DNA of 32,191 bases, taken from positions 1-32,191 of the forward strand of contig VBIA01000166.1 in the NCBI GenBank assembly GCA_005879985.1, given 5' to 3'. Below the pieces are notes generated by a model that was not told the DNA's origin, ran no database searches, and saw only the letters and a list, made by a program, of their open reading frames with translations. Origin of the DNA: Chloroflexota bacterium (GTDB lineage Bacteria > Chloroflexota > Dormibacteria > Dormibacterales > Dormibacteraceae). The translations under genes were made by a program, and so were the position numbers. Shown piece after piece: positions 2 to 20,613 of this stretch; position 1 is the stretch's first letter, and the number at the start of each line of letters is the position of its first letter.

Positions 2-94
2 TCGACGCTGGAGCAGGTCTTCGACCCATGGGCGGGCCTGGAGAACACCGACCTGGCCTTCGAGCGACTCTCCCTCGGAGTGAAGACCGCTTGA
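2..94 (+). CDS. purB: C-terminal fragment, probably adenylosuccinate lyase (PurB)
   Basis: Open frame from the window edge, STLEQVFDPWAGLENTDLAFERLSLGVKTA*, resembles a PurB C-terminus and lies directly upstream of purC; only 30 residues visible. Confidence 0.5.
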   Translation, partial: STLEQVFDPWAGLENTDLAFERLSLGVKTA

Positions 95-281
95 TCCGGC
101 GATCCCGGCCGGAGGCCCTCGCCGGATCTTCGGGGCCCATGCGACCCATCTTCGGGTTCAGCGGCTCCGCTGCTCGCTCTCGCAGTTCTCCAATGCGTTC
201 GCTCCGCTGCTCGCCGCTTCACCCGAATCTGAGCCCCCTGGATCCCCGAATCTCTCGTCGAGGTCTCCTGCCGTGATCGCC
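92..281 (+). repeat. Copy 1 of ~182-190 bp intergenic element (purB/purC gap)
   Basis: Aligns without gaps to 1191..1380 at an offset of exactly 1099 bp, about 22 mismatches in 190 by hand count; runs from the purB stop TGA to the purC start GTGATCGC. Confidence 0.93.
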
Positions 282-1193
282 GGTCCCGCGGTCAGCAACA
301 CGGAGCTGCCGCTGAAGCTTTTCGCGCGCGGCAAGGTGCGCGACACGTACGAGCTGCCCGACAACCAGCTGCTGATGGTTGCGACCGACCGGCTCTCGGC
401 GTTCGATCACGTGCTGCCCACCGGCATCCCCGACCGCGGCAAGGTGCTGACCCAGCTGTCGATCTTCTGGTTCTCGCAGACGCACACGTTCCAGGAGAAC
501 CACCTCGTGTCGGGCATGGTCCCCGACCTGCCCGCCGCCCTTCGCGACCACCGCGAAGAGCTCGCCGGCCGATTCATGATCGTGCGCAAGGCCAAGCGCA
601 TCGACTTCGAGTGCGTCGTCCGCGGCTACCTTGCCGGGAGCGCGTGGAAGGAGTACGAGAAGTCGCACACGCTGGCCGGCGAGGAGATGCCACCCGGCCT
701 GCGGCAGAGCGAGAAGCTGGCGTATCCGATCTTTTCGCCCGCGACCAAGGCCGAAACCGGCCACGACGAGAACATCACGTACGCGCAGCTGAAGAAGGAG
801 CTCGGCGACGACCTGGCGCAGAAGCTGCGCGACGCAAGCCTCGAGCTTTACAAGCACGCGTCGCAGCACGCGGAGAGGCGCGGCATCATACTGGCCGACA
901 CCAAGTTCGAGTTCGGCCAGATCGACGACGAGCTCATTCTCATCGACGAGGTCCTCACGCCCGACAGCTCGCGGTTCTGGGACGCGGTCACCTACGGCGT
1001 AGGCACGACCCCCGACTCGTACGACAAGCAGTTCGTGCGCGACTGGCTCACGCGCTCGGGCTGGGACAAGGAGTCCGATCCACCGGCCCTGCCGCCCGAG
1101 ATCGTCGCCCAGACCCGCGAGCGCTACCTCACCGCGTATCACCGCCTCGTGGGCAAGCCCCTCTTTCCGAAGAAGCCGAGGAACGAAAAATGA
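273..1193 (+). CDS. purC: Phosphoribosylaminoimidazole-succinocarboxamide synthase
   Basis: KLFARGKVRDTYELPDNQLLMVATDRLSAFDHVLPTGIPDRGKVLTQLS; ILADTKFEFG; LIDEVLTPDSSRFW - SAICAR synthetase motifs; GTG start. Confidence 0.97.
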   Translation: MIAGPAVSNTELPLKLFARGKVRDTYELPDNQLLMVATDRLSAFDHVLPTGIPDRGKVLTQLSIFWFSQTHTFQENHLVSGMVPDLPAALRDHREELAGRFMIVRKAKRIDFECVVRGYLAGSAWKEYEKSHTLAGEEMPPGLRQSEKLAYPIFSPATKAETGHDENITYAQLKKELGDDLAQKLRDASLELYKHASQHAERRGIILADTKFEFGQIDDELILIDEVLTPDSSRFWDAVTYGVGTTPDSYDKQFVRDWLTRSGWDKESDPPALPPEIVAQTRERYLTAYHRLVGKPLFPKKPRNEK

Positions 1194-1380
1194 TTTGGCG
1201 ATCCCGTCCCGAGCCCCTCGACGGAGCTTCGGCGCCCATGCGGCCCATCTTCGGGCTCAGCGGCTCCGCTGCTCGCTTACGCAGTTCTCCAATGCGCTCG
1301 CTCCGCTGCTCGCCGCTTCGTCCGAATCTGGGCCACCTGGATCGCCGAATCTCTCGCCGAGGTCTCGGGACGTGATCGCG
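1191..1380 (+). repeat. Copy 2 of ~182-190 bp intergenic element (purC/purS gap)
   Basis: Ungapped match to 92..281; runs from the purC stop TGA to the purS start GTGATCGC. Confidence 0.93.
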
Positions 1381-1635
1381 CGAATAGTCGTGGTGCCGAA
1401 ACCGGTCGTCAACGACCCGCAGGGGGTCACGGTCCGGCAGGGTCTCGCGTTGCTGGGCTTCGGTGAGGTCACCGAGGTCCGCGTCGGCAAGTACATCGAG
1501 GTCAGGCTGGACGCGACCTCCGAGCGCGCGGCGCGCGAGCGCGTCGACGCGATGTGCAGCCGGCTGCTCGCCAACCATGTGATCGAGGACTACCACTTCG
1601 AGCTCGAGCACGAGAGCAAGGGCGCGATGCGATGA
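1372..1635 (+). CDS. purS: Phosphoribosylformylglycinamidine synthase subunit PurS
   Basis: GTG start; [46 protein letters not shown], 87 aa, followed by purQ with ATGA overlap. Confidence 0.95.
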
Positions 1636-4540: not shown

Positions 4541-5971
4541 ATGTGCGGGGTTTTTGGAATCTGCGCCTCTGGCAAGGTTGACGTCGCCAACCTGACGTAC
4601 TTCGGGCTCTTCGCGCTGCAGCACCGCGGCCAGGAGTCGGCGGGCATCGCCGTTTCGGACGGCAAGTCGGTGCGCGTGCATCGCGGCATGGGCCTGGTCG
4701 CGCAGGTGTTCAACCCGGCGAAGGTGAAGGAGATGGGCGAAGGCTCGGTGCTCGCCCTCGGCCACACTCGGTACTCGACCACCGGCTCGTCGCGCGCTGA
4801 GAACGCGCACCCGCTGCCGTTCCATCACCCGCAGCTGGGCTCTGGCGCCATCGCCCACAACGGCAACCTCCTGAACGCTCAAGCCCTGCGCACGCAGCTC
4901 GAGGAGGAGGGCGCGACCTTCGAGTCCGGTCTCGACACCGAGGTGATGGCGCGGCTCATCGAGCACACGCACGGCCGGACGTGGGAGGACGTCGTGCGGC
5001 GCGCGTTCGCCCGCGTGGTCGGCGCTTACTCGTGCGGCATCATCACGCCGAATCAGCTCATCGCGCTCCGCGACCCTTTCGGGTTTCGGCCGCTGTGCAT
5101 CGGTTTCATACCGCTCGCCGGCCAGCCCGCGCATGTGATGGCGTCGGAGACGTGCGCGCTCGACACCGTGCACGCAACCTTTGTGCGCGAGGTCCAGCCG
5201 GGCGAGATGGTCGTGATGGACGAGCACGGCGTGCACAGCGCGACGTTCCAGACCTCGAACAAGCACGCGATGTGCGTGTTCGAGTTCATCTACTTTGCGC
5301 GTCCCGACTCCATCCTCAAGAACTGCGAGCTCGAGGAGGCACGCATGCGAATGGGCCACGAGCTCGCCAAGGAAGCGCCGGTCGAGGCGGACATGGTGAT
5401 CGCGTTCCCCGACAGCGGCACCCCCGCCGCGATCGGGTACGCCGAGGCCTCTGGCATCCCATACCGCGAGGCGCTGATGAAGAGCCGCTACATCAATCGC
5501 ACGTTCATCCAGCCCGACCAGTCGCTGCGCGAGGCGGGCGTGATGCTGAAGCTCAACCCGCTGCCGCGCTCCATCAGGGGCAAGCGTCTCATCGCAGTCG
5601 ACGACTCCATCGTCCGCGGCACCACGTCCCATCGCATCATCGACCGCCTGCGGGCGGCGGGTGCGAAGGAGATCCACATGCGCATATCGAGCCCACCCAT
5701 GCGCTACCCGTGCTTCATGGGTGTCGACATCGGCTCCACCAAGGAGCTCATCGCGGCGGGGCGAACCGTCGAGGAGGTCCGCAAGCACATCGGCGCCGAC
5801 AGCCTGTCGTACCTGTCCATCCCGGGCCTGATGCGGGCCATCGGGCGCGGCACCTCGCAGGAGTTCTGCCGCGCGTGCTTCGATGGCTCGTACCCTGTGG
5901 CCGTGCCGCAGCAGCTCGAGATGGATAAGTTCGCCTTCGAATCGAATCAACAAGCTCCTCTGAAGAATTGA
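4541..5971 (+). CDS. purF: Amidophosphoribosyltransferase
   Basis: MCGVFGI N-terminal nucleophile, LQHRGQESAGIAV, CVFEFIYFARPDS, VDDSIVRGTT PRTase motif. Confidence 0.97.
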   Translation: MCGVFGICASGKVDVANLTYFGLFALQHRGQESAGIAVSDGKSVRVHRGMGLVAQVFNPAKVKEMGEGSVLALGHTRYSTTGSSRAENAHPLPFHHPQLGSGAIAHNGNLLNAQALRTQLEEEGATFESGLDTEVMARLIEHTHGRTWEDVVRRAFARVVGAYSCGIITPNQLIALRDPFGFRPLCIGFIPLAGQPAHVMASETCALDTVHATFVREVQPGEMVVMDEHGVHSATFQTSNKHAMCVFEFIYFARPDSILKNCELEEARMRMGHELAKEAPVEADMVIAFPDSGTPAAIGYAEASGIPYREALMKSRYINRTFIQPDQSLREAGVMLKLNPLPRSIRGKRLIAVDDSIVRGTTSHRIIDRLRAAGAKEIHMRISSPPMRYPCFMGVDIGSTKELIAAGRTVEEVRKHIGADSLSYLSIPGLMRAIGRGTSQEFCRACFDGSYPVAVPQQLEMDKFAFESNQQAPLKN

Positions 5972-6960
5972 GTCGTCTTCCGCTGGGGTCCCCACGCAAA
6001 GCGTGGGAGGCAGCGGAAGGGCTGTCGTACGCCGAGGCCGGCGTCGACATCGAGGCGTACGAGCGCGTGCTGGAGCGGGTCAAGCCGCTGATCGCGGCGA
6101 CCCAGGGCGCGCAGGTCGCCGCGGGCGTCGGCCCGTTCGCCGGCCTGTATCAGCTGCCGGACGGCAGCCGGCTGGCGGCAAGCGCCGACGGCGTCGGCAC
6201 CAAGATCAAGGTCGCCATCGCTGCCGGGCGCCATCGCGGCATCGGCGTAGACATCGTCAACCACTGCGTCAACGACATCGCGTGCGCAGGCGCTCGGCCC
6301 CTGTTCTTCCTCGACTACTTCGCGACCGGCAAGCTGGATCCAAAGGTCTTCGAGCAGGTGGTCGAAGGAATGACCGAGGCGTGCAGCGCAGCCGGATGCG
6401 CGCTGCTCGGCGGCGAGACTGCGGAGATGCCGGGTGTCTACGCGTTGGGTGACTACGACCTGGCGGGGTTCATCGTTGGCGTTGTGGATGGCGGCGCCGA
6501 TCGAGGCGCGGTCAACGAGGGGGACCTGCTGGTCGGCCTTCCATCGAACGGCCTACACACCAACGGCTACTCGCTCGCGCGCAAGGTGTTCGAGGGCACG
6601 CCGCTGACCAGGAAGCTCGCCGACCAGCTGCTTGCACCGCACCCCTCGTATCTCGACGCCATGCGCTCGCTGCGCTGGAAGGCGGCGGCGCACATCACCG
6701 GAGGGGGCATCCTCGGCAACCTGCCCCGCTGCCTGCCCGACGGACTCGGCGCGGTGCTTCACAGAGAGAGGTGGAAGGTGCCGCCGATCTTCGGCGAGAT
6801 CCAGGCTCGCGGCCGCGTCTCCGCCGACGAGATGTACGGCACGTTCAACATGGGACTCGGGATGATCCTGGTCGTCGATGCCAAGAACGTGGACGCAGGC
6901 TCCCTCGTGGTGGGCGAGGTTATCGAACAGAAAGGGCCCGAGCGGGTGCTGCTTCGCTGA
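5968..6960 (+). CDS. purM: Phosphoribosylformylglycinamidine cyclo-ligase
   Basis: SYAEAGVDIEAYERV; ADGVGTKIKVA; GVDIVNHCVNDI; GLPSNGLHTNGYSLAR. Start uncertain: TTG 5968 (TTGA overlap with purF) or CTG 6022. Confidence 0.95.
   Translation: MSRLPLGSPRKAWEAAEGLSYAEAGVDIEAYERVLERVKPLIAATQGAQVAAGVGPFAGLYQLPDGSRLAASADGVGTKIKVAIAAGRHRGIGVDIVNHCVNDIACAGARPLFFLDYFATGKLDPKVFEQVVEGMTEACSAAGCALLGGETAEMPGVYALGDYDLAGFIVGVVDGGADRGAVNEGDLLVGLPSNGLHTNGYSLARKVFEGTPLTRKLADQLLAPHPSYLDAMRSLRWKAAAHITGGGILGNLPRCLPDGLGAVLHRERWKVPPIFGEIQARGRVSADEMYGTFNMGLGMILVVDAKNVDAGSLVVGEVIEQKGPERVLLR
5977..6019 (+). repeat. Strong hairpin at the purF/purM junction
   Basis: CTTCCGCTG (5977-5985) pairs with CAGCGGAAG (6011-6019); inner CCCACGC-AAA-GCGTGGG (5991-6007). 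Confidence 0.75.

Positions 6961-16281: not shown

Positions 16282-16292
<11 letters not shown>
15747..16292 (+). CDS. pyrR: Bifunctional pyr operon regulator / uracil phosphoribosyltransferase PyrR
   Basis: [82 protein letters not shown]. Confidence 0.96.

Positions 16293-20590
<4,298 letters not shown>

Positions 20591-20613
<23 letters not shown>

Follow-up and report, generated by a model that had tools for sequence, protein, structure and literature searches.

Probable mobile hairpins at stop/start overlaps of the purine operon in a Chloroflexota family, with a terminal hexamer matched to the target

Short non-coding palindromes that are dispersed between genes and often transcribed within operons are known from the ERIC, YPAL, Correia (NEMIS) and Chunjie MITEs. 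The element described here shares these traits, but differs in that its start-type copies sit exactly on NTGA overlaps, rebuild the Shine-Dalgarno sequence (SD) and start codon, and carry a terminal hexamer matched to the target. In the passages of a MITE review available to us, Chunjie is cited as inserting in operons without disturbing operon structure (PMC10969869). Neither target-matched termini nor SD-supplying insertion at NTGA overlaps appears in the accessible passages of MITE reviews (PMC10969869 among them) or in the papers searched, most of the subscription literature lying outside our reach. REP/BIME sequences with their RAYT (Y1) transposases are likewise hairpins, but mobilisation of this kind was rejected since the element-bearing genomes searched lack a Y1 transposase: PF01797 gave no match in any element-bearing genome of the set, and its 8 matches all came from G012, which lacks the element. 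In the IS200/IS605 family, internal guide bases pair with bases of the target, whereas in our element it is the left end that pairs with the flank on the right. Integron attC sites are imperfect palindromes in which the outermost bases of the core differ from one copy to the next but remain complementary within each one; the element departs from them in its end (CCG-T-GANNNN, with right-end base frequencies reading CCG-T-G-A-Y-Y, rather than GTTRRRY/RYYYAAC), in having no cassette gene, and in that the matching bases belong to the host. Cis-regulatory RNAs such as riboswitches and ribosomal leaders resemble it in having the SD predicted as paired inside a stable structure at the 5' end; unlike them, the element is mobile, is tied to no pathway, and has no alternative fold and no Rfam match.

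The window, by which we mean the whole 32,191-nt stretch of DNA that was analysed, contains a 189-nt repeat at 92-280 and 1191-1379, with 88% identity between the copies, at the purB-purC and purC-purS junctions (Table 1). We put at about 0.8 the probability that these are two copies of a non-coding, MITE-like mobile hairpin, one insertion mode of which is exactly onto in-operon NTGA overlaps. The upstream gene is identified as purB because the neighbouring contig C39, which overlaps positions 1-298 at 99.3% identity, carries an adenylosuccinate lyase frame. The match at C39:19-207 was rejected as an extra copy, being this same overlap (99.3% over 298 nt). The positions that the original prediction had assigned to GAGG, CCTCG and the GTG starts (273 and 1372), and the 9 nt between GAGG and GTG, are all correct. 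Two further features of the window were recorded: at the purF-purM junction (a TTGA overlap, 5968-6020) purM opens with an in-frame 43-nt hairpin, CTTCCGCTGGGGTCCCCACGCAAAGCGTGGGAGGCAGCGGAAG, whose module (C)TGGGGTCCCC...GGGAGG is also nested in the longer element copies L012, L013, L015, L017, L019 and L020; and a single 1443-aa open reading frame at 16282-20613 carries both CarA (small chain) and CarB (large chain) carbamoyl-phosphate synthase domains, an apparent CarA-CarB fusion.

Table 1. Positions of the two element copies, their parts and the adjoining genes in the window
Feature	Position	Strand	Remarks
purB TGA stop, directly abutting copy 1	92..94	+	adenylosuccinate lyase frame, contig C39
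Copy 1 spacer TCCG, 4 nt; sequence non-conserved, length constant	95..98	+	same length in most start-type copies
Copy 1 left hexamer H' GCGATC, reverse complement of host 275-280	99..104	+	
Copy 1 hairpin body; its final base, G273, opens the purC GTG	105..273	+	
Copy 1 left-arm CCTCG, SD-pairing	117..121	+	
GAGG, purC SD, element-supplied	260..263	+	
Host hexamer H GATCGC (third base of the purC start codon, then codon 2 and the start of codon 3)	275..280	+	present in element-free relatives
purC (SAICAR synthetase)	273..1193	+	Pfam PF01259, E 3e-72
purC TGA stop, abutting copy 2	1191..1193	+	
Copy 2 spacer TTTG, 4 nt	1194..1197	+	
Copy 2 left hexamer H' GCGATC	1198..1203	+	
Copy 2 hairpin body; last base G1372 starts the purS GTG	1204..1372	+	empty site in same-genus genome G001
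Copy 2 left-arm CCTCG, SD-pairing	1216..1220	+	
GAGG, purS SD, element-supplied	1359..1362	+	
Host hexamer H GATCGC (third base of the purS start codon, then codon 2 and the start of codon 3)	1374..1379	+	present in G001 empty site
purS	1372..1635	+	Pfam PF02700, E 1.3e-28

The element, about 180 nt long, was found by BLAST at 32 places on both strands of its own 2.85-Mb assembly, a count that includes the one contig overlap (C39:19-207) and a few split matches. With the purC copy as query, related copies were recovered from 32 of 61 genomes and from none outside the family; with a start-type copy as query, the element was detected in 39 of the 42 genomes from a single Chloroflexota family, and 24 other genomes from the class gave none. 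The nearest relatives that have names are MAGs of Chloroflexi from soil. Carriage by a phage or plasmid was rejected, as there was no match in plasmids or phages and no exact match to a viral contig. Many dispersed non-coding copies, orthologous empty sites and terminal inverted repeats, three of the traits by which MITEs are recognised, were observed.

Relatives mostly show an NTGA stop/start overlap at purB-purC and purC-purS. G001, a genome of the same genus, carries the element at purB-purC and lacks it at purC-purS, where its empty site reads AACGAAAAATGATCGCGCG and the occupied site in the window reads AACGAAAAATGATTTGGCGATCCC...GGGACGTGATCGCGCG. The insertion amounts to 182 nt: the TGA of purC is kept, the A of the ATG is replaced by the last G of the element to give GTG, and the displaced SD is replaced by the element's own GAGG. 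About 25 further relatives are without the element there. In a survey of about 30 genomes per junction, occupied sites were found at purC-purS in G000, G020, G023, G034 and G025, at purB-purC in G000, G001 and G065, and at pntA-pntB in G000, G023, G033 and G036, not counting the rows G008 and G027 ('OCC?'), which are false positives of the motif test; uvrC-rapZ and epimerase-apt are occupied as well. Orthologous empty sites at these five junctions, and at the TA-type sites described below, establish insertion. The occupied genomes lie dispersed among relatives with empty sites, which suggests repeated insertion at the same junctions.

Across the family, 39 copies lie at in-operon stop/start junctions, typically resupplying the SD and the G of GTG. 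These junctions are flanked by real protein ends and beginnings, and every one of the 26 resolved contexts is co-directional; they include gene pairs that we take, from recognising their translations rather than from a family search, to be tlpA/ccmE-like, nuoM/nuoN-like and ABC-transporter genes. Copies were called start-type by anchoring at fixed offsets together with a start codon and open frame after the right end, so that the set is defined by the right end and not by the hexamer match. Among copies at starts 77% have GAGG, whereas the figure is 38% for copies of the same subfamily located elsewhere (Fisher p = 0.001), which argues for its use as an SD; judged from this enrichment, it is probably the ribosome-binding site in use.

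The usual anatomy of the 39 start-type copies is TGA - 4 nt - H'(6) - N - CGGCC ... GGCCG - T - H(6), with the TGA+4+6 spacing constant. H' is the exact reverse complement of H in 22 of 23 independent junctions, compared with a mean of 1.3 and a maximum of 7 in 20,000 shuffles. Read outward, the fraction paired at successive positions is 1.00, 1.00,.97, 1.00,.95 and 1.00, then.38 and.26, a sharp 6-nt edge. The match usually stops short of the T, because a C faces it in 74% of copies. At purC, purS, pntB, rapZ and apt, H also occurs in element-free orthologues (GATCGC, GACGAT, GACTGT, GACCGT, GACTCT, GACTTC), the GACTCG of G025 purS being the single exception among the hexamers checked at these five junctions; on this comparison, H is host sequence that pre-dates the insertion. 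The covarying closing stem seen in the original prediction is hence real as pairing, but of another origin, its six outer pairs using host bases older than the insertion.

When non-orthologous copies whose cores are 93% identical or more are compared, on average 53% of their H' positions agree, and L162 and L167, which have 95% identical cores at different loci, differ at 3 of 6, each fitting its own host. As far as these alignments can tell, H' follows the target and not the element lineage. Compensated hexamer changes occur among some of the copies that share a junction, and these could reflect selection for pairing instead of copying at insertion, and many non-start copies also have complementary ends. 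No clean target-site duplication was seen in start-type copies past TGA and about one base, the one next to it, at which the excess is weak; a 7-nt duplication (TGANNNN) was rejected, the matches beyond TGA being.56/.41/.21/.31 against.34/.30/.22/.24 in controls. As a separate observation, the apt copies L164 and L167 have 99% identical cores and, beside the stop, spacers that differ in 2 bases out of 4, which suggests either unusually fast spacer change or independent insertions.

Other superfamily copies, mostly non-start, have fixed ends, TA-GAGGC.. or TA-GCAGG.., with TA on both sides. At L026 the empty site of G001, GAGCTC-TAGC, compares with an occupied GAGCTCTA[element]TAGC, a TA duplication that is clean by comparison with L438; at the remaining TA-type sites examined the element is absent in G001 and the junction alignment is less clean. 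From these sites the sister branch appears to duplicate TA at insertion, which makes the superfamily MITE-like, with the start-type copies in a different register. In the window's own genome, L021-L026 and L029 form a second near-identical subfamily of ~176 nt with ends TAGCAGGC...CCTGCTA, mostly TA-flanked. Smaller hairpins were also noted at the uvrC-rapZ junction. In L369, L376 and L380 (G025, G011 and G017) they are ~30-40 nt long and have the element's ends with the body missing and the H'/H match kept or nearly kept, and are apparently internal-deletion derivatives; in L381, L382 and L386 (G063, G036 and G018) different small hairpin-like sequences, for example gcgcgtttggcgcctgacgcgc, lie upstream of rapZ at the same junction.

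Each copy is predicted to fold into one long hairpin, the whole element being an imperfect inverted repeat with conserved internal mismatches in its stem. Fold energies are -98 kcal/mol (z -5.7) for copy 1 and -109.9 (z -7.7) for copy 2. According to partition function calculations, the SD is paired with CCTC (116-120; 1216-1219) with a probability of being unpaired of at most 0.004, so that the masking of the SD anticipated in the original prediction from the complementarity of GAGG and CCTCG is borne out in the predicted fold. A competing inverted repeat, GGCGATCC (98-105 and 1197-1204) with GGATCGCC (1339-1346; counterpart GGATCCCC at 240-247 in copy 1), had further been proposed to give mutually exclusive folds or a pseudoknot. 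This part found no support, because GCGATC pairs with GATCGC at the start codon within a single nested fold and the pairing of GGCGATCC with GGATC(G/C)CC has a mean probability of 0.0 in the ensembles of both copies. Mismatches on the transcribed strand show no G·U excess, with 67 G.T against 154 A.C in start-type copies and a comparable ratio (203 against 462) in copies elsewhere, and RNA-level selection on the hairpin is not indicated. Rfam gave no match at gathering score within the window.

The proposal that the repeat is a cis-regulatory RNA switch for purine synthesis, exposing and hiding the SD by alternative folds, has in its favour a stable stem that places the SD beside CCTCG and that none of 200 shuffles equals in stability. 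We nevertheless consider it very improbable: the same element stands before pntB, rapZ, apt, nuoN-like, ccmE-like and transporter genes and at non-start positions, and it is missing from most purC and purS orthologues. A switch dependent on a ligand or on conditions is unsupported given host genes so functionally mixed, a competing fold of about zero probability and the absence of a G·U excess or Rfam match; the observation behind the original prediction is real, its mechanism mostly wrong. The constant spacing, the enrichment of GAGG at starts and the compensated changes would also suit a portable translational coupler, in which selection on the mRNA preserves the pairing between H' and the first codons, and a ribosome that terminates at the TGA, 4 nt off, opens the foot of the hairpin and releases the downstream start. 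Such a coupler in its simple form is not favoured, because masking the footprint of the terminating ribosome in constrained folding leaves most of the SD pairing intact in copy 2 and in the majority of copy 1 models; the mismatch counts and the similar terminal complementarity of non-start copies also speak against it, and we regard it as unlikely.

A further proposal concerns effect and is compatible with mobility: the long hairpin may serve as an RNase III site at which mRNA segments are separated. The very long stem at a transcribed intra-operon position is in keeping with this, as is the cutting of Correia elements by RNase III reported in the review passages available to us (PMC10969869), but the conserved internal mismatches are not, and by analogy such a role seems possible, if somewhat doubtful. 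The match between H' and H could alternatively arise if an inherited terminal hexamer acted as a guide choosing matching targets. GATCGC is found at 4 of 4 GAT-type occupied purS sites against 5 of 17 empty ones (p = 0.02), and H' identity climbs somewhat with core identity; L162 and L167, however, differ in H' despite their near-identical cores and each fits its own host, and we think a guide improbable.

We suggest, tentatively and with slightly less than even confidence, that with every insertion the mobile hairpin remakes its terminal 6-bp repeat as a copy of the target, and that it is specialised for stop/start overlaps through an outward ribosome-binding site. As read from occupied and empty sites, the element enters an NTGA overlap where the upstream gene retains its TGA, and its right end provides GAGG 9 nt upstream together with the G that makes a GTG start of the host 'TG'. 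Next to the left end, on its inner side, H' is the reverse complement of the six host bases after 'GT', so that the hairpin closes onto the first codons of the downstream gene. H' may be derived from the target during insertion, for instance through fold-back copying of a 6-nt segment or by an enzyme with a 6-nt register; such target-copying transposition would be unlike any mechanism known to us. In the pur mRNA, stop/start coupling would give way to an independent, damped initiation site without ligand sensing. Damped expression is expected from an SD embedded in a hairpin, and static damping of translation is plausible on the folding models.

A target-matched hexamer that ends so sharply after 6 nt is indicative of an insertion mechanism not yet described. 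There is also a caution here, as covarying stems at the start codons of a repeated element can mimic a regulatory RNA though they arise from the mode of insertion. By restoring stop, SD and start, a mobile element can occupy the tightest spaces of a compact genome, namely the overlapping codons in essential operons. If this is indeed a target-copying element with an outward ribosome-binding site, operons of essential genes could be entered without being broken.
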